DNA of 61,642 nt from a virus. The notes beneath the pieces were generated by a model that ran no database searches, had not been told where the DNA came from, and saw nothing but the letters and a program-made list of their open reading frames with translations. The stretch lies in IMG/VR virus record IMGVR_UViG_3300034072_001227, positions 1-61,642 of that record, one strand, 5' to 3'. This document shows positions 8,464 through 44,153 of this stretch, piece by piece. Made by a program: the position numbers and the translations under genes. Numbering within the stretch: the stretch's first letter is position 1; each line of letters opens with the position of its first letter.

Positions 8464-8930
8464 CAGGCCTCCATTGCGCAGATCAGCGCTGCCCGGAGGT
8501 GAAGCCCGAGCGGGTTGTAGCGGAAATAATATCTGTTCCGACCAGCGCCAGCGGTCATCTTGCCGCTGGCAAACCAATGCTTCGTCGATTCCAGAAGGAT
8601 GATGGGCTCATAGCCATCATATTCCCCAGAATAGACATCATCTCCGACATCAACGAAATATTCGCAGCGCGCGATCGTGCGGTGCTCATCTTCCGTGCAT
8701 GGCTGCTCTGCCAAGGTATGGGCGCCGAAGCGGAGGAAGGTGATCTGCTCCTCGGTCAGGCGCCCCAGGCAGAAGCGAACCGTCTCGGCGTCGACGTCGG
8801 CGCAAGAGGTGCAATCATAGGTGTTCCCGCCCATCACGTTCTTCTTCGTGCCAAAGCACAGGAAGCAGGTGACGGCGAGATTGCGGGAAAGGGTGAGCAG
8901 CACCTTGGCCGGATTGTCGTTCTCAACCAT
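8463..8930 (-). CDS. Hypothetical protein with CxxC pair
   Basis: Codes for 155 residues from ATG at 8930, preceded by GAGGTG. Residues about 22-45 hold CFLC and CTSC separated by a Gly-rich loop, a probable zinc ribbon. The C-terminal half is acidic and aromatic. It overlaps the upstream gene by eight bases. Not recognised. Confidence 0.6.
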   Translation of the reverse strand: MVENDNPAKVLLTLSRNLAVTCFLCFGTKKNVMGGNTYDCTSCADVDAETVRFCLGRLTEEQITFLRFGAHTLAEQPCTEDEHRTIARCEYFVDVGDDVYSGEYDGYEPIILLESTKHWFASGKMTAGAGRNRYYFRYNPLGLHLRAALICAMEA

Positions 8931-30248: not shown

Positions 30249-30395
30249 ATGATGCTCCGCCTTCTCCCCCTGCTTCTGCTGACCGGCTGCTCGACCGTCC
30301 CGAGCTATATCAGCTGCGACAATGCCGAGATGGCGCGCACGGCCGCCAAGGCTGCGCTCCGGGCATTGGACAACGCCTGCCCGATCATCTACTGA
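30249..30395 (+). CDS. 48-residue lipoprotein
   Basis: ATG at 30249 (second ATG 30252) with AAAGG seven bases upstream. The protein is a signal sequence (LRLLPLLLLTGC) with lipobox LTGC at residues 11-14, then about 34 residues containing two more Cys. It should be an outer- or inner-membrane lipoprotein. Size recalls Rz1-like spanins, but it is far from the lysis genes and is not proline-rich. Superinfection immunity by a small lipoprotein is another possibility; neither is shown. The frame stays open for 70 codons after the TGA. Confidence 0.65.
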   Translation: MMLRLLPLLLLTGCSTVPSYISCDNAEMARTAAKAALRALDNACPIIY

Positions 30396-30699: not shown

Positions 30700-30777
30700 G
30701 GGGATGTCGTCCAAACGGTATAAGGACGCCAGTTTCCAAAACTGGAAATCTAGGTTCGAGTCCTAGCAGCTCCGCCA
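30700..30777 (+). tRNA. tRNA-Trp (CCA anticodon)
   Basis: Cloverleaf: acceptor GGGGATG/CAGCTCC with one A-G mismatch and one G-U, D stem GTCC/GGAC, anticodon stem CCAGT/ACTGG with loop TTCCAAA giving anticodon CCA, T stem CTAGG/CCTAG with TTCGAGT loop, and encoded 3' CCA. It reads UGG codons. Confidence 0.85.
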
Positions 30778-30781
30778 CCAT

Positions 30782-30855
30782 TCACCCTTCGTCTAATGGC
30801 AGGACATCCGGTTTTGGACCGGGCAATGCTGGTTCGACCCCAGCAGGGTGATCCA
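30782..30855 (+). tRNA. tRNA-Gln (TTG anticodon)
   Basis: Acceptor TCACCCT/AGGGTGA is perfect. D arm GTCT...GGAC, anticodon stem TCCGG/CCGGG with loop TTTTGGA giving anticodon TTG, T stem GCTGG/CCAGC, encoded CCA. Only four bases separate it from tRNA-Trp, so the pair is processed from one transcript. Confidence 0.92.
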
Positions 30856-30922: not shown

Positions 30923-31834
30923 ATGAACGACGAACAATATATTCCGCTGTCTGCGCGCGAGCCGCTGCAGCATGTGGTGGAGGAGCCGGCTGGCGGGAAG
31001 CAGCCGCTGGTCATCACCCTCAAGCGCCCCTCGCCGTCCGATCGGCAGCTTCTGATCTCCCGCATGTTCGCGGCTGGCCTGCGACAGCCGACGGGCAAGC
31101 AGATCCGCGCGGCCGAGCTCAACGCGCTCATCAAGATCCTGGGCGACGACGCTGGCGAGGAAGCGGCCAGCAAGCTCGAGATGTTTTATGACGCTGCGGA
31201 TCTGTGGGGCCGGCAGCTGGTCGAGTGGCGCGAGCGCGAAGCCCAGCGCATTATCGATGAGAAGAACGGCGCTGAGCCGATCGCTCCCGAGGCCCCGCCG
31301 GCAAAACCCTACACTGAGCGCGAGAAGAACGCGGCCGAGCTGCTGATGTATCAGGCGCGCAGTGACGAACTGGTGATCCGCCTGCTGGCCGACGCGGCTG
31401 CATACAATGCCGGCAACATGTTCTGGCTGGTCCGCACGCACATGGTCCCCGATGGCCTTGCTGGCGGCCCCGAGGCGCTGGTCATGTCCTTCGACAAGGA
31501 GGGCGTGCTGACCAAGGAAGCGCTGGACGATCTGATCGGCTACATCGGCGAGCCTGCTTTCCTCGAATTGGCCGGCGTGATCGATGGGCAATATTCGCTC
31601 AAGGCGAGTGAGGAAAAAAACTCCGCATCGCCGCTCGAGACCTCGCGACCGAAGGACGAGCCTTCGGAAGCTACGAGCGGCGTATTGGAGAAACACGCTG
31701 GCATTTCGACGGAATCGATTATCGAACCAACCCCCGAATCCGCATCCGACCAGATCACCGAGAAGTCGTCCTCCACGCCTTCCGCACCAACGGACTTGAC
31801 GGGGACCACTACCCAGACGGTCGGACCCGCATGA
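30923..31834 (+). CDS. Tail assembly chaperone, short (G-type) product
   Basis: Codes for 303 residues from ATG at 30923, preceded by AAGGGA; a longer frame to 30848 crosses tRNA-Gln and was rejected. The helical N-terminal 230 residues resemble G-type chaperones (VITLKRPSPSDRQLLISRM, LNALIKILGDDAGEEAASKLE). After the slippery site at 31615 the zero frame continues as a Ser/Thr/Pro-rich tail. It binds the tape measure during tail assembly by analogy with lambda G. Confidence 0.7.
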   Translation: MNDEQYIPLSAREPLQHVVEEPAGGKQPLVITLKRPSPSDRQLLISRMFAAGLRQPTGKQIRAAELNALIKILGDDAGEEAASKLEMFYDAADLWGRQLVEWREREAQRIIDEKNGAEPIAPEAPPAKPYTEREKNAAELLMYQARSDELVIRLLADAAAYNAGNMFWLVRTHMVPDGLAGGPEALVMSFDKEGVLTKEALDDLIGYIGEPAFLELAGVIDGQYSLKASEEKNSASPLETSRPKDEPSEATSGVLEKHAGISTESIIEPTPESASDQITEKSSSTPSAPTDLTGTTTQTVGPA

Positions 31835-31905
31835 TGCAGCCTGTCCTGCTCAGCCGCGCGATCGATGTCGTGCGCAAGTATATCCGCGAGCAGGGCAACG
31901 ACTGA
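30923..31905 (+). CDS. Tail assembly chaperone, -1 frameshift (G-T) product
   Basis: Ribosomes slipping back one base on A-AAA-AAC (31615-31621) enter a frame that is open for 94 codons (from 31621) and stops with TGA at 31903-31905, exactly overlapping the next ATG. The product would have about 327 residues. The added domain (RWHFDGIDYRTNPRIRIRP, LDGDHYPDG) looks like a real protein and not a random frame. Lambda and most siphoviruses make G and G-T in this way just upstream of the tape measure. Confidence 0.8.
31615..31680 (+). promoter_or_regulatory. Programmed -1 frameshift site
   Basis: Slippery heptamer A-AAA-AAC in frame (31615-31621), 9-nt spacer, then an outer stem CCGCTCG (31631-31637) / CGAGCGG (31674-31680) and an inner stem CCGAAGG (31649-31655) / CCTTCGG (31661-31667) with loop ACGAG. 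Heptamer, spacer length and stimulatory structure are all canonical. Confidence 0.85.
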
Positions 31906-32591
31906 TGCGCCTGGCTATCCGCCAGACGCGCACGCCCGGCCGGTATATTGATGCCGGCCGGCGCTATGCCAAAGACCTCGAGCAGGCCGCCTTCTATGCG
32001 ACCGATGAGGCATCCAAACTCGCCCAGAGGGGCGTCCAGAGCAAGATGCGCGCCGTGGGCCTTGGGCGGCTGGCCAATGCCGTCGGGCAGACGTCGGCGC
32101 TCAAGAAGAACCAGCGCGGCCGCAATCCCTATGGCGTGCTCTATGCGCGCGGCGGGGACGAGAGCCTGGCCGGTGGCGCGCTCGACGCCTACACGCGCGG
32201 CGTCACCATCCGAGCGACCAACCGCAAGTGGCTGGCCTTCCAGACGAACGCTATCCCGCGCCGGGTGAACCGCAAGCGCATGACGCCCGCCCTGTATGAA
32301 AGCGCGGGATTCGCCTCCCGCTATGGCAAGCTGGTCTTCCGCCCGATCAAGCCCGACCTCGCCCTGTTGGTGATCCGCAATACGAGCGTCACCGGCAAGG
32401 GGAAGGTCCGCGAGCGCGGCAAGCGCATGGGCCGGGGATCGATCGCGCAGAAGGAAGTCGTCGCCTTCGTGCTGGTGCGCGAGACGCGCCGGGCGCAGCG
32501 GTTCGACAAGATGGACGTCATCGCTCCTTATGCGCGCATGGTGCCGCAGCTGATGAGCGATTTCCTGATCCGGCGCCGCACCGTCCACTGA
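31905..32591 (+). CDS. Conserved phage tail protein, DUF6441-like
   Basis: Codes for 228 residues, very basic. The order of elements (helical N-terminus, VGLGRLANAVGQTSALK, PYGVLYARGG, WLAFQTNAIPRRVNRKRMTP) recalls the DUF6441 family of alphaproteobacterial phages. It lies between the chaperones and the tape measure, so a tail assembly or tail-completion role is likely. One-base overlap with the G-T stop. Confidence 0.55.
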   Translation: MRLAIRQTRTPGRYIDAGRRYAKDLEQAAFYATDEASKLAQRGVQSKMRAVGLGRLANAVGQTSALKKNQRGRNPYGVLYARGGDESLAGGALDAYTRGVTIRATNRKWLAFQTNAIPRRVNRKRMTPALYESAGFASRYGKLVFRPIKPDLALLVIRNTSVTGKGKVRERGKRMGRGSIAQKEVVAFVLVRETRRAQRFDKMDVIAPYARMVPQLMSDFLIRRRTVH

Positions 32592-37349: not shown

Positions 37350-40300
37350 ATGATCCTTCCTCTGTTCAGTTCCGCGCTGATTGTCATTGACGCCTGGAGC
37401 AAGGGCTCCGGGTCACGCGCGCCGATCTATCTGGCCGACGGGCCATCGCCCAACACCTATGGCATCGCAGGGTATTCGTGGGAGCCTGCGGTCAGCGACC
37501 GGCCGGCGATCTCCATGGATATCGGCACGCCGCAGGTCGACGGGAAGATCCGCGCAGGCCGTGCGACGTTCTCGATCATCAAGGCCAACGTCCGGTCTGT
37601 CGACATCAATGCGCTCTACCTGCGCTCTGCACCGGTTCGGATCTACGCTTCCATGGCGGAAGATCTGGACCTGACCAAGCCGGAGTTCGATGGCCGCATT
37701 ACCAGCGTTCGGGAAAGTGAAGACGGCTTCACGCTGTTCATATCGGCGGAGGTGTGGACATCGGACCTCGAGAAGCCGCTGCTGAATAGCGACTTCTCCG
37801 GCCTTGGCGGGATCAATGGCGATATCTCGCTGCGCGGCACCCTGCGCCCGGCCGGCTTCGGCGCCAAGGAGAACATCCCGCCCGTCTGGTTCGACCTCAC
37901 CGACAACATTGGCCAGATCGACGGATACGGCAACACGCTGGCCATCACGCGGCTCATGGAGGGAGCGTCGGACATGGGCCCGAGGGTCGACGACTATCCC
38001 ACATATGCGGCGCTCAAGGCGGCGATCGTCGCCAAGGTGATCGGGCCGGGCCAGTGGGGGACGTGCGTTGCGCAGGGATTGGTCGGCCTCGGGTCCCCCC
38101 CGGCTGGCGTCATCACTGCCAATGCGACGTTCGGCTCCAACCGCATCGGCCAGATCTGCCGCCGCATCATCACGACCCATGCCGGCGTCGACGTCTCGCG
38201 CGTGGATGTCGCGGCGTTCGACGCGGTCGATGTCGCCCTCCCTTATGCTGTCAGCTACTGGACATCGTCGCAGCGCACGGTGCTCGACCTCTTCGAGAAG
38301 CTGGCCCTGTCGGCAATATCGACACCCTTGGTCACGCTCCAGAACCGGATTTCGATCTCGCGGGCTGTGACCGGCGCTCCGGTTGGGACGCTCGACTGCT
38401 CAGGCGCGCAGGAGCCGCGCGTCACGACTTCGCAGACCGCCGAACTGTCCGCGCCATATACCGCTATCAAGGCGCGATCTGCGCGCCCGGCGGCGGTCCT
38501 GTCGATCGATCAGGTTTTCTTCATCGACGATCTGATCGAGGTCGGCGTCTTCGAGGTCGACGCGACGTATTATGCGGGCAACATCGTCACGATGGCGAAT
38601 GGCTCGCGCTGGCTGTTCATCAGCGAGACGCCAAAGGCAGGCTCGGTCCCGTCCGACAGCAACACCGACTGGCAGCGCCTGGCCGACGCGATCACGGCCG
38701 GCAACATCACCTATGAAGACGGCACGCCGGTTGAAGCGTTGAAGCCTGCCGAGCCGGGTGCGACCGATGGCATGAACGACGAAGAGCGGGACGAATTCGA
38801 CCAGCTCGCCGCCGACACTGCCACCGCCCAGACCAATATCGCCGCTGCCCAGGCGCAGATCGCGGCGATCCAGTCGAGCGTCGCGGCCGACTTCTCCGCG
38901 GTCAATGCCGAGGTCGATGCGCTGCAAGGCGCAATGACCACCGCCCAGGGCAATATCGCATCGATCCAGTCCGCGCAGTCCGACCTGTCCCAGTCTGTGG
39001 CCGCTCTGGCAGCGGACATGAGCGCCGCCGAAGGGTCGATCAGCAACCTGCAAACGTCGGTGAATGCGAGCCTGTCGGCGCTCAACAGCGACGTGGATGC
39101 CCTGGAGACGCAGGCTGCCGGCATCGCCGCGAGCGTGACCGGCCTCAATACGCAGGTCGGGTCGATCAATACCAATGTCTCGGCCCTGACCACGCGGATC
39201 GCGGACGCTGAAGGCGATATCGACAGCCTGCAATCGACCGTGGCGAGCCAGGGCGCGGCGATCACCGCCAACGCGACCGCGATCACGAACGCGCAAGGAT
39301 CGCTGGCCGAATATAGCCTGCGCCTGTCCAGCAACCGCCGGAACCTGCTGCCCAATGGCGGGCCGGAGGCGCTGCTGCGCGGGTGGACCGGCTCGGCGAC
39401 CTGGACGGTCAACACCAACAACAGCGAGGGTGCCTATTTCCTCTGCACGCCCACCGCCAGCGGCACGTTCGTTCTGACCAGCGATGCGATCCCGATGGAG
39501 GCCAGCGTTGCCCTGACGCTGGGCTATGAGACCCGCAACACGGGCGCGACCTCCTATTGCGATATCCAGTGCTATGACGCGTCCGGCGCAAACCTGATGG
39601 ACGGCGGGCAGAACGCCGCCGCTTCGGGCACGGTGTGGGGCGACCGAGCAGGCCGCGCCTTCACCCTCACCACGCCCGCCAACACGGCGTCGGTGCGCGT
39701 GCGCCTGGTCTGTGTCGCAACCTCCGCTTCCGATCGCGCGCGCATCCGCCAGGTCAAGCTGGAGAAGGGCACGACCTGGTCGGCCTATTCCAATGACGCA
39801 TCGGTCGCGCAGGCCTTCACCGCGATCAGCTCGGCCGAGGCCAATGTCGCCAGCCTGCAAACGACCGTCGCAACCCAGGGCGCGTCGATTTCCAGTAATG
39901 CCACCGCCATCACCGCGCTGACCGGTCGCACTGCGACGCTGGAGACGACGGTGTCGAGCCAGGGCGCGACCATCGGCACGCTTCAGTCGGCCGTATCCAC
40001 CGCCAATGGCAATATCGCCAGCCTCACGACGCGGGTTAATGTCAGCCAGACGAACCTGCTGCCCAATGGCGGCCTCGAAAATGGCTTTTCTGGCGCCATC
40101 ACTAGCGGGTCTTTCAGCTGGAGCAATGCACCGGAATGGGGTCCGATCGCGACCACGTCTACCAACGGAACCCAGATATTCGAATTTGCCGACATCACCG
40201 CTGTGCAGGTTGGCGCGACCTATTGGATTTCCTGCGACCCGCTCGCGCTGGGCGCGTCATCCATCTACTGCGATCTTCTGTTCCTCGACGCCAGCGGCAA

Positions 40301-43300
40301 TGTGCTGCTCGATGGTGGCCAGAACAGTCAGGCAGGGCCTTTCAATTTTAGCGCCAATGACACGCGTCGATCGTTGATCGCGGTGCCGGCCGTGGCGCCC
40401 AGCGGTACCACCAAAATCCGCCCCCGCGTCGTGGCCAATGTCGTCAGCAATCAGGTCGCAGGCTTCCGCCGCGTAAAGGTGGAAACCGGCAATAGCTGGA
40501 CGCCGTTCTCCAGCGAAGCCAGCCTGTTCTCCAACTGGTCGGCGACCAACACCGCGACCGCCAGCGTCGCCAGCCTGACCACGACCGTCAGCACCCAGGG
40601 CGCGTCGATCAGCTCGGCCCAGACCGCCATCACTACGCTGCAAGGTTCGGTATCGAGCTTGCAGACGACGGTCAGCACGCAAGGCGCCTCAATCACCACG
40701 CTGCAAAGCACGACCTCGACCCATACAGGCCAGATCGCGCAGCACACGACCGACATCGCCACCGCCAACAGCAACATCAGCGCGAATGCCCAGGCCATCA
40801 CCACGGCCAATGGCAATATCGCGAGCCTGACGACGCGCGTGTCCTCGGCTGAGAGCAGCATTTCCAGCCAGGCGACGGCCATCACCGGCCTGACCGGGCG
40901 CACCGCCACGCTGGAAACGACGGTCAGCAGCCAGGGCGCGTCGATCACCTCGCTCCAGACCACGACCTCGACCACCAGCGCGAACCTCGCCACCCTGACC
41001 ACGCGGGTCAATGCAGCGTCCACGAACCTGCTCAAATATGGCGGCTTCGAAAGCGGCGCGACCGGCTGGGTCGTTGTCGGCGCCGCCAGCTGGGGCGCGG
41101 TCAACGGCTTTTGGGGTCCGTTCGTCAACACGGCCGGGCTTTCGAACGGCAATGCCGGCTTGCAGAGCGAGCAGTTTGACGCCTCGCCGGGTCAGGCCTG
41201 GACGGCTTCTGTCGACGCCGAGTTCCTGGCGACAGCCGGCCAGATGTATTTGCAGATGGCGTTCCTGGTCAGCGGCAGCTGGACCACGGTCGGCACGGTC
41301 TACAAGACACGTGGGGCGGGCTTCACCAGCACCTCCGACGGTCGCCTGCGCACCACCCAGACTGCGCCTGCCAATACGACCAAGGTCCGCATTCAGATGG
41401 GCGTCGTCAATGTGGCCGGCGTCACCAACTGCGGCTTCCGCCAGGCCAAGCTGGAAGTCGGGTCGGTCATGTCGCCCTACAGCAACGAGGCGAGCGTCTA
41501 TCAGACGATCCAGACGCTCACGACCGCAACGGGCAGCCTTGCAACGCTGTCAACCACCGTATCGACCCAGGGCAGCAGCATCACTAGCCTGCAATCCTCC
41601 TACACGTCGCTGAGCGGGTCGCTTGCCAGCCTGACGACGCGGGTCGGCACGGCGGAAAGCTCCATCACTTCGCTTCAGTCGGCGTCGACCACCCAGGCCG
41701 GGCAGATCAGCACGTTGCAATCGACGGTCGCGACCCAGGGTTCGTCGATCAGCTCGAACGCCACCGCAATAACTACGCTGCAGGGCAATGTCGCCAACCT
41801 GACCACGCGAGTGAATGCGGCCCAGACCAACCTGCTGGTCAATGGCGGGCTGGAGAATGGCTTTGCCGGCGCCATCAGCGACGGCGGCTTTACCTATGGC
41901 AACTGGGGCACCTGGGGACCGAACGCCTCCACATCGACCAATGGCCAGCATGTCTTCCAGTTCGGCGACATCACGCAGGTCCAGGTTGGCGCGACCTACT
42001 GGATTTCCTGCGATCCGCTTGCCTTGGGCGGGTCGGACATCTGTTGTGATCTGCTGTTCCTCGACGCGAGCGGCAATGTGCTGCTCGATGGGCCGCAAAA
42101 TACCCAAGCCGGCCCGTTCAACTATTCGACCGATGATACCCGCCGGGGCCTGATCGCCGTGTCTGCTGTCGCGCCCAGCGGCACGATGCGGATCCGCGCG
42201 CGGATCATCGGCAATGTTGTCTCGGGCGCCACCATCGGCTTCCGCCGGGTGAAAGTGGAGATGGGGACAAGCTGGACCGGCTTCTCGTCCGAAGCCTCGA
42301 TCGTCCAGAGCTTCACCGCTTATTCCGGTCTCGACAGCAGCCTTGCGACGCTATCTAGCACGGTGTCCACCCAGGGCGGCAGCATCACGTCGCTACAATC
42401 GAGCTTCACCAGCCTCAATGGCACGGTATCGAGCCTGTCCTCGACCGTCTCCACGCAAGGGACATCAATCAGCACGCTGCAAACGGCATCGTCCACCCAA
42501 TCCGGCCAGATCGCTACGCTTCAGACCCAGATCGTGCTGGGCGGCAACCTGTTGCAGAATACAGATTTCGCGGTCGATACATCGGGATGGTTCTTCAACC
42601 AGAGCGGCAGCAGCCACACCGGCGCCCGCGATCTTTTGGGCGACGCTTATCGCCTGCCCAATGAACACACGCTTGGCATTCGCCAGGGCGACACCAACAG
42701 CACGGCCTATGCCTTCTGGCAGTCGACCGCCGTCGCGGTGGAGCCGGGCAAATATTACGAAGCCAGCTGCCTGGGGGCCAACGTCAATGCCAACCTGACG
42801 ATCTATCTGCGCTTTCAGGACGCCAACGGCGGCACGGTCCAGGACTTCACCGCCGCCAAGACGAGTGACAGCCAGGGCGCGACATTGTCCGCCTTCCTGC
42901 CGCTGTTCCGGCGTGGTCTGGCGCCGGCCGGCGCCACCAAGGTCGTGGTCATCCTGCTCAAGAACAGCACCAAGGCGGGCAGCGAAAGCTATGGCTGGTT
43001 CACCCGGCCGCAGCTCGCCCAGGTGCCCGGCCTGACGGGTGGCCCGGTGGCCTATTCGCCGGGCAGCGCCAGCACGACGATCAGCACGCAGGCGACTGCG
43101 CTCAGCAATGCGACCAGCAGCCTTGCGAGCCTGACCACAACGGTCAACACCCAGGGCGCGACAATCTCCAGCCAGGCCACCGCGATCAGCACACTGGAGG
43201 GGCAGCAGTCGAGTCTGTCGTCGACGGTATCGGCGCAGGGCGCGGCGATCAGCTCTCTGCAGACCACGACCTCGACGCTGCAAGGCAATGTTGCCAGCCT

Positions 43301-44153
43301 GACGACGCGGGTCGCCGCGTCCAGCCCCAATCTCCTGCCCAATGGCGGGCTTGAGAATGGCTTCGCCAGCGGCGTGGGGTCGGCCGGCGGTTACAGTTTT
43401 GCCATCAGCGCTGATTGGGGGCCGATCGCTAGCACGACTGCAACCGGCACGCAGGTGTTTCAGTTCGCGCCGGTCGCAGCCAATGCCGGTCGGGTTTATA
43501 CGCTGGCCTGTGATTCCGTCTGCACCGGCTCGGGCAGCGCGGTTTATTGCGACATGCTGTTCCGCAACGCTGCCGGCGATATCCTGCTTGATAGCGCGCA
43601 GAACATACTTGCAACCGTCTCCGACTTCGACACCACCACCGGCCGGCGCGGGCAGATTGCCGTCACGGCTACCGCCCCAACGGGCACGACCAACATCGTT
43701 TGCCGCTTTGTAGGCGTGCCGCAAAATGGAGGCACGGTCGGCTTCCGGCAGATGAAGCTGGAGCGGGGCAGCACCTGGTCGCCCTACAGCGCCGAAGCAA
43801 GCATCACGCAGAGTTTCTCGACGCTCTCGACCCTGGGAACGCAATATGCCTCGCTCTCCAGCACCGTGGCGACCCAGGGCGTAAGCATCAGCACCCAGGC
43901 GACCGCGATCACGACAATCCAAGGCAATGTGGCGACGGTTCTCGGCCGCTGGGGCGTTGAAATTGACGTGAACGGCTACGTCAGCGGAGTGGCGATGAAC
44001 AATAACGGCCAGCGCTCTGACTTCGCGGTGCGTGCGGACAAGTTCTCGATCATCCCACCATCCAGCACAGGTGAACGCTTCGAATACAGCGGCAACAATA
44101 TCAGGATCTACCATCCCAACGGCAACATAGCCATTCGTCTGGGGGTAGCCTGA
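37350..44153 (+). CDS. Tail-tip hub and central fibre protein with repeated modules
   Basis: Codes for 2267 residues. About 1-440: a beta-rich hub-like part (PAISMDIGTPQVDGKIRAGRATF, TSDLEKPLLNSDFSGLGG). From about 475: heptad coiled coil with repeating TVSTQGASI/LQTT units. Six modules beginning NLLxNGG(L/P)EN start near residues 665, 898, 1223, 1491, 1730 and 1991; each is about 150 residues, ends near KLExGxxWxPYS, and looks like a jelly-roll carbohydrate-binding domain. The C-terminus (EIDVNGYVSGVAMNNNGQRSDFAVRADKFSI) matches the end of J-type central fibres (DUF1983). Likely the receptor-binding protein. Confidence 0.85.
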   Translation: MILPLFSSALIVIDAWSKGSGSRAPIYLADGPSPNTYGIAGYSWEPAVSDRPAISMDIGTPQVDGKIRAGRATFSIIKANVRSVDINALYLRSAPVRIYASMAEDLDLTKPEFDGRITSVRESEDGFTLFISAEVWTSDLEKPLLNSDFSGLGGINGDISLRGTLRPAGFGAKENIPPVWFDLTDNIGQIDGYGNTLAITRLMEGASDMGPRVDDYPTYAALKAAIVAKVIGPGQWGTCVAQGLVGLGSPPAGVITANATFGSNRIGQICRRIITTHAGVDVSRVDVAAFDAVDVALPYAVSYWTSSQRTVLDLFEKLALSAISTPLVTLQNRISISRAVTGAPVGTLDCSGAQEPRVTTSQTAELSAPYTAIKARSARPAAVLSIDQVFFIDDLIEVGVFEVDATYYAGNIVTMANGSRWLFISETPKAGSVPSDSNTDWQRLADAITAGNITYEDGTPVEALKPAEPGATDGMNDEERDEFDQLAADTATAQTNIAAAQAQIAAIQSSVAADFSAVNAEVDALQGAMTTAQGNIASIQSAQSDLSQSVAALAADMSAAEGSISNLQTSVNASLSALNSDVDALETQAAGIAASVTGLNTQVGSINTNVSALTTRIADAEGDIDSLQSTVASQGAAITANATAITNAQGSLAEYSLRLSSNRRNLLPNGGPEALLRGWTGSATWTVNTNNSEGAYFLCTPTASGTFVLTSDAIPMEASVALTLGYETRNTGATSYCDIQCYDASGANLMDGGQNAAASGTVWGDRAGRAFTLTTPANTASVRVRLVCVATSASDRARIRQVKLEKGTTWSAYSNDASVAQAFTAISSAEANVASLQTTVATQGASISSNATAITALTGRTATLETTVSSQGATIGTLQSAVSTANGNIASLTTRVNVSQTNLLPNGGLENGFSGAITSGSFSWSNAPEWGPIATTSTNGTQIFEFADITAVQVGATYWISCDPLALGASSIYCDLLFLDASGNVLLDGGQNSQAGPFNFSANDTRRSLIAVPAVAPSGTTKIRPRVVANVVSNQVAGFRRVKVETGNSWTPFSSEASLFSNWSATNTATASVASLTTTVSTQGASISSAQTAITTLQGSVSSLQTTVSTQGASITTLQSTTSTHTGQIAQHTTDIATANSNISANAQAITTANGNIASLTTRVSSAESSISSQATAITGLTGRTATLETTVSSQGASITSLQTTTSTTSANLATLTTRVNAASTNLLKYGGFESGATGWVVVGAASWGAVNGFWGPFVNTAGLSNGNAGLQSEQFDASPGQAWTASVDAEFLATAGQMYLQMAFLVSGSWTTVGTVYKTRGAGFTSTSDGRLRTTQTAPANTTKVRIQMGVVNVAGVTNCGFRQAKLEVGSVMSPYSNEASVYQTIQTLTTATGSLATLSTTVSTQGSSITSLQSSYTSLSGSLASLTTRVGTAESSITSLQSASTTQAGQISTLQSTVATQGSSISSNATAITTLQGNVANLTTRVNAAQTNLLVNGGLENGFAGAISDGGFTYGNWGTWGPNASTSTNGQHVFQFGDITQVQVGATYWISCDPLALGGSDICCDLLFLDASGNVLLDGPQNTQAGPFNYSTDDTRRGLIAVSAVAPSGTMRIRARIIGNVVSGATIGFRRVKVEMGTSWTGFSSEASIVQSFTAYSGLDSSLATLSSTVSTQGGSITSLQSSFTSLNGTVSSLSSTVSTQGTSISTLQTASSTQSGQIATLQTQIVLGGNLLQNTDFAVDTSGWFFNQSGSSHTGARDLLGDAYRLPNEHTLGIRQGDTNSTAYAFWQSTAVAVEPGKYYEASCLGANVNANLTIYLRFQDANGGTVQDFTAAKTSDSQGATLSAFLPLFRRGLAPAGATKVVVILLKNSTKAGSESYGWFTRPQLAQVPGLTGGPVAYSPGSASTTISTQATALSNATSSLASLTTTVNTQGATISSQATAISTLEGQQSSLSSTVSAQGAAISSLQTTTSTLQGNVASLTTRVAASSPNLLPNGGLENGFASGVGSAGGYSFAISADWGPIASTTATGTQVFQFAPVAANAGRVYTLACDSVCTGSGSAVYCDMLFRNAAGDILLDSAQNILATVSDFDTTTGRRGQIAVTATAPTGTTNIVCRFVGVPQNGGTVGFRQMKLERGSTWSPYSAEASITQSFSTLSTLGTQYASLSSTVATQGVSISTQATAITTIQGNVATVLGRWGVEIDVNGYVSGVAMNNNGQRSDFAVRADKFSIIPPSSTGERFEYSGNNIRIYHPNGNIAIRLGVA
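39341..43800 (+). repeat. Six diverged fibre modules with coiled-coil linkers
   Basis: Module starts lie near 39341, 40045, 41020, 41822, 42540 and 43322. Modules two and four are close copies even at DNA level, sharing GTTGGCGCGACCTA and GGCAATGTGCTGCTCGATGG (the latter near 40296 and 42071). Linkers carry many variants of ACCCAGGGCGCGTCGATC. This is intragenic duplication that could drive host-range change by recombination. Confidence 0.75.

Follow-up and report, generated by a model that had tools for sequence, protein, structure and literature searches.

A probable programmed −1 frameshift and a long dual-coding stretch at a candidate lambda-like tail chaperone locus of an uncultivated phage lineage

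The use of a −1 frameshift to make two forms of a tail-assembly helper protein is a well-known phage mechanism. In phage lambda, G binds the tape measure protein and T binds the major tail protein (PMC5009743). The locus described here lies on a 61,642-base viral contig (the window, meaning the whole stretch of DNA that was analyzed). It resembles lambda G/G-T in its location among tail genes ahead of the tape measure gene, in the −1 slip on an X_XXY_YYZ heptamer (G_GGA_AAG in lambda, mainly GGGAAAC here), in a T that is entered from G, and in a T stop that overlaps the start of the next gene. Unlike in lambda, one extra gene separates T from the tape measure gene, and the two systems have no detectable sequence kinship. 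Phage P2 E/E+E′ (T_TTT_TTG) also yields an extended product by −1 frameshifting, directly before the tape measure gene, but P2 has a contractile tail, a different heptamer and no sequence match to our locus. HK97 gp13/gp14 and mycobacteriophage D29 gp24/gp25 resemble the locus in general gene order and in having a frameshifted product annotated. Over these four systems we compared how long the zero frame stays open past the slip. It ends after 15 nt in lambda and 18 nt in P2 (5–6 codons), compared with 210 nt in the window and 102–252 nt (34–84 codons) in its family. The HK97 overlap (at most 49 nt) is also shorter than the one described here; in D29 we found no in-phase X_XXY_YYZ and could not locate the slip site, and the overlap stays open for no more than 220 nt. 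The mechanism is textbook; the novelty lies in the protein families and in how far the dual coding extends.

The features of the locus are collected in Table 1. The start of G is most likely ATG 30923, which is preceded by AAGGGAACGAGC. The protein consists of 233 aa through the slip codon followed by a hydrophilic tail of 70 codons that includes ...EEKNSASPLETSRPK. Across the heptamer the zero frame reads GAA AAA AAC (E K N), which agrees with the first-pass annotation of A-AAA-AAC in the zero frame of this gene. AAAAAAC is not rare by itself (2 occurrences in the window, 1.3 expected); the evidence for a slip lies in phase, position and conservation. The −1 frame is closed just 5′ of the slip by TGA 31609–31611 and is open from 31612. 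Its 94 codons beyond the slip and its overlap with the next ATG had been described correctly: the stop (TGA 31903–31905) overlaps ATG 31905 as TGATG. The resulting G-T fusion would have 327 residues, compared with 303 for G.

Table 1. Features of the candidate tail chaperone locus in the window
Feature	Position	Strand	Basis
Putative major tail protein, 403 aa	28854..30065	+	Conservation and gene position; databases gave no significant match
G, candidate zero-frame tail assembly chaperone, 303 aa	30923..31834	+	Open reading frame; up to the slip 20–30% identical to the window in 15 relatives; AlphaFold2
Slippery heptamer A_AAA_AAC	31615–31621	+	In phase with the zero frame; homologous in-phase heptamer in 17/17 distinct relatives
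Predicted stem-loop after the slip	31621..31690	+	MFE fold, z −3.4; without covariation support in relatives
Dual-coding stretch, 70 codons, G tail and T domain	31622..31831	+	T-frame synonymous bias in 18/18
T domain, −1 frame, 94 codons past the slip	31622..31902	+	Open frame; 39–49% identical to the window in 17 relatives
Next gene, 228 aa, PHROG 6367	31905..32591	+	ATG overlaps T stop; conserved downstream neighbour
Tape measure protein, 1557 aa	32654..37327	+	phrog_24 tail length tape measure, E 6e-6

A scan of the −1 frame for ATG, GTG and TTG, from the stop at 31609–31611 onward, returned no start before ATG 31831. A gene caller would therefore miss T, as had been anticipated, and T can be reached only by a frameshift or from an unorthodox start. 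One might suppose that T initiates by itself as a separate gene, translated independently of G, since overlapping separate genes are frequent in phages and an ATG ATG does occur in the T frame at 31831. However, initiation at this position would leave 24 codons and drop the most conserved part of T, from KLRxAAR to the PDG motif, and the conservation of T sets in exactly at the slip rather than at 31831. Together with the lack of an upstream start, these observations make a separate T gene extremely unlikely.

Phage records and viral contigs were queried with G, with G-T and with the tape measure protein, and no homologue of G or T came up; G-T had no match among 50,697 phage records, and a direct scan of viral contigs with G found nothing. 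Relatives were reached by way of a capsid scan (the window capsid is a Phage_cap_E protein), followed by alignment-based scans for which the upstream tail protein and T served as queries. After removal of duplicates of L004, L028 and L038, this protocol afforded 17 distinct viral or MAG loci besides the window. One of them (L049) lies in a Sphingomonadaceae MAG, which suggests that Sphingomonadaceae are the host group. Aurantimonas AmM-1 and Synechococcus Yong-M2-251, which have related capsids, gave no G or T match in the stretches examined.

With this set we could establish that a slippery heptamer is present at the homologous base, and in phase, in all 18 sequences. In each of them an in-phase X_XXY_YYZ ending in C marks the exact onset of T homology, and the motif KLRxAAR follows directly after the slip in every relative, save for an I/L swap. 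G up to the slip is less conserved than T, a pattern that makes sense only if T is translated. Relatives without the heptamer or with stops in the −1 frame were sought, and all 17 have both intact; the earlier frameshift reading is supported by this conservation in every relative examined. Two T domains, those of L004 (10149–10460) and L024 (6961–7275), contain an 8-residue insertion, VRGG(N/D)HPL, after WxFD, and both of their frames are longer.

The heptamer is GGGAAAC in 12 of the 18 sequences and AAAAAAC in the other six (the window and five relatives). These two forms are three base changes apart and encode G or K at the residue concerned, yet both are slippery, with no intermediate among the 18 sequences. 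They switched at least three times on the T tree, which is poorly resolved and weakly supported. The Lys codon within the heptamer is AAA in 18/18 sequences, compared with an AAA:AAG ratio of 12:165 in the genes of the window and of 19:109 when the sequences of the family are pooled around the slip, so that AAA accounts for only 7–15% of the Lys codons nearby. In L021, which has an AAAAAAC slip and in which AAA is otherwise rare, a gene for tRNA-Lys(TTT), which decodes AAA, lies at 8486–8574, immediately past the gene that follows T.

The same comparison bears on two further explanations. A-runs are known substrates for slippage by RNA polymerase, which could act on the A7 tract of the window (31614–31620) and on AAAAAAC in the five relatives to make mRNAs of altered length that reach the T frame. 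Against this idea, the 12 GGGAAAC sequences have no homopolymer run longer than four at this site, and the strict X_XXY_YYZ phase is a requirement of ribosomal slippage. We consider transcriptional slippage very unlikely. A homopolymer of seven A is also prone to errors, and a sequencing or assembly indel could have split one gene into two frames. In 17 distinct contigs, most of which read GGGAAAC, the two frames stand in an identical relation at the identical base, which excludes this artefact for the family, and the zero-frame tail past the slip bears its own selection signal (see below). For the window, the probability of such an artefact is very small. We therefore regard a programmed −1 ribosomal frameshift on A_AAA_AAC, yielding G and G-T as lambda-like tail chaperones, as very probable, given that the relatives share the heptamer and a gene position like that of lambda G/GT; the slippage, its efficiency and the chaperone roles are what we infer from this pattern.

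At the locus, the putative major tail protein gene comes first, followed by G/T, a single further gene and the tape measure gene. The putative major tail protein is 49–62% identical over its full length in most relatives and 46% in one. In the AlphaFold2 model of G, residues 1–233 have a mean pLDDT of 90 and form short strands first and long helices after them; the T domain was modeled with moderate confidence (pLDDT 78). Searches of Pfam and PHROG matched neither G nor T to any family. Foldseek with the confident G model gave no significant match in the viral library and none in the PDB, and a fold search with the T model was equally without a significant match. The best 50 entries of the viral list for G include several proteins annotated as tail or tape measure chaperones, none of them significant (best E 0.12). 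Consequently, the chaperone label rests on context: the earlier assignment as a G-T tail chaperone is backed by gene order and architecture but not by any family or fold match, and we treat G and G-T as candidates.

The surroundings of the locus contain several other elements. Two tRNA genes, tRNA-Trp(CCA) (30700–30777) and tRNA-Gln(TTG) (30782–30855), are found in the interval from the putative major tail protein gene to G; tRNA genes upstream of G also occur in L043 (Met and Trp, again between the tail protein gene and G) and L044 (Met), and most relatives have none. A 48-codon open reading frame (30249–30395) with a lipoprotein-like start, MMLRLLPLLLLTGCSTVPS, sits in the space from the tail protein gene to the tRNA genes of the window and may encode a small lipoprotein, for example an Rz1-like spanin. 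Downstream of the tape measure gene, positions 37350–44153 encode a 2267-aa tail protein with long repeated coiled-coil-like segments that matches several structural phage families.

We then examined the RNA downstream of the slip. The two-tier stem starting nine bases past the heptamer, reported in the first-pass annotation, is present where it had been placed: an outer stem pairs CCGCTCG (31631–31637) with CGAGCGG (31674–31680), and an inner stem pairs CCGAAGG (31649–31655) with CCTTCGG (31661–31667). The minimum free energy fold adds two outer pairs and a third, outermost helix that starts at the last base of the heptamer, giving helices 31621–31625/31686–31690, 31629–31637/31674–31682 and 31649–31655/31661–31667. 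This fold has an energy of −39.1 kcal/mol (z −3.4), and 1 of 200 shuffles was equally good. Compared with synonymous recodings that keep the T protein, it is only moderately exceptional (z −1.97; 12 of 300 were as stable). Far greater stability than that of shuffles was seen in the window, L003, L027, L031 and L044 but not in most other relatives. Across the family, the 84 nt past the slip fold with a mean z of −1.23 against synonymous recodings (P 2e-4 if the sequences are taken as independent), while the next 84 nt, used as a control, are not significantly different from recodings (mean z −0.39). Pairs of the first and second helices form in 70–76% of alignment cells, a value to be read with the caveat that many of these columns code for conserved T residues; the inner helix forms in 41%. 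Covariation across relatives was not clearly above that of shuffles, and RNAalifold returned no consensus structure. The covariation test therefore rejects the hairpin as a conserved RNA element, and the inner stem is specific to the window. The description of this nested stem as particularly clean is accurate for the strength of the fold in the window but does not extend to the family. The results are best read as a preference for local structure past the slip, the form of which is free to vary among relatives. In the window, the downstream RNA structure probably aids the slip.

The length of the zero frame past the slip raised the question as to whether the G tail is itself selected. Openness of this frame is no proof, and was rejected as such, because between roughly 23% and 96% of recodings are equally open. 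L045 (4998–5109) has a tail of only 34 codons past the slip, compared with 60–84 elsewhere, and its T is intact. We turned instead to the four-fold degenerate T codons in the overlap, the third bases of which are second positions of G codons. At these sites A accounts for 26% and G for 13%, compared with 8% A and 40% G in the rest of T and with 4% A and 40% G in the window genes. Relative to the gene before the slip, A is up and G is down in 18 of 18 sequences. The bias persists in codons that can never form a zero-frame stop (A 32% vs 5%, in 18/18; G 16% vs 38%, in 16/18), by which we can rule out stop avoidance as its cause. In the window, A reaches 41% in the overlap; the maximum over 70-codon stretches of seven other genes is 19%. 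The encoded tail is hydrophilic and rich in Ser, Thr, Pro, Asp and Glu, and this richness clearly exceeds that of T-constrained recodings in eight of nine sequences tested, the exception being L003.

This synonymous bias in the T frame indicates that the zero-frame tail is translated too and that its composition is selected; most likely, then, the zero-frame product is made and the composition of its tail is under selection. As to what the tail does, we lean slightly toward a reading in which the frameshift picks between two functional C-termini encoded by the same ~70 codons. G would carry a probably disordered tail rich in Ser, Thr, Pro and acidic residues, and G-T a folded T domain; both frames would be under selection, and the G tail would be a working part of the chaperone rather than simple read-on. 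A role of this tail in solubility or spacing of the abundant form would be a guess.

The programmed frameshift could operate as follows. A fraction of the ribosomes that start at 30923 would slip back by one base on A_AAA_AAC and end in the −1 frame, so that one start would give two products in a ratio set by slippage. The non-shifted protein would end in its Ser/Thr/Pro-rich hydrophilic tail, and the same bases would encode most of the T domain. By analogy with lambda, abundant G may coat the tape measure protein, and scarce G-T may recruit the major tail protein via T.

With this finding, a lineage of uncultivated phages gains a conserved T family that is encoded by frameshift and missing from the Pfam and PHROG libraries searched. 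The family also provides a new training case for annotation tools, including the interchangeable use of GGGAAAC and AAAAAAC, and the long stretch read in two frames offers a natural test of how one segment of DNA serves two proteins.
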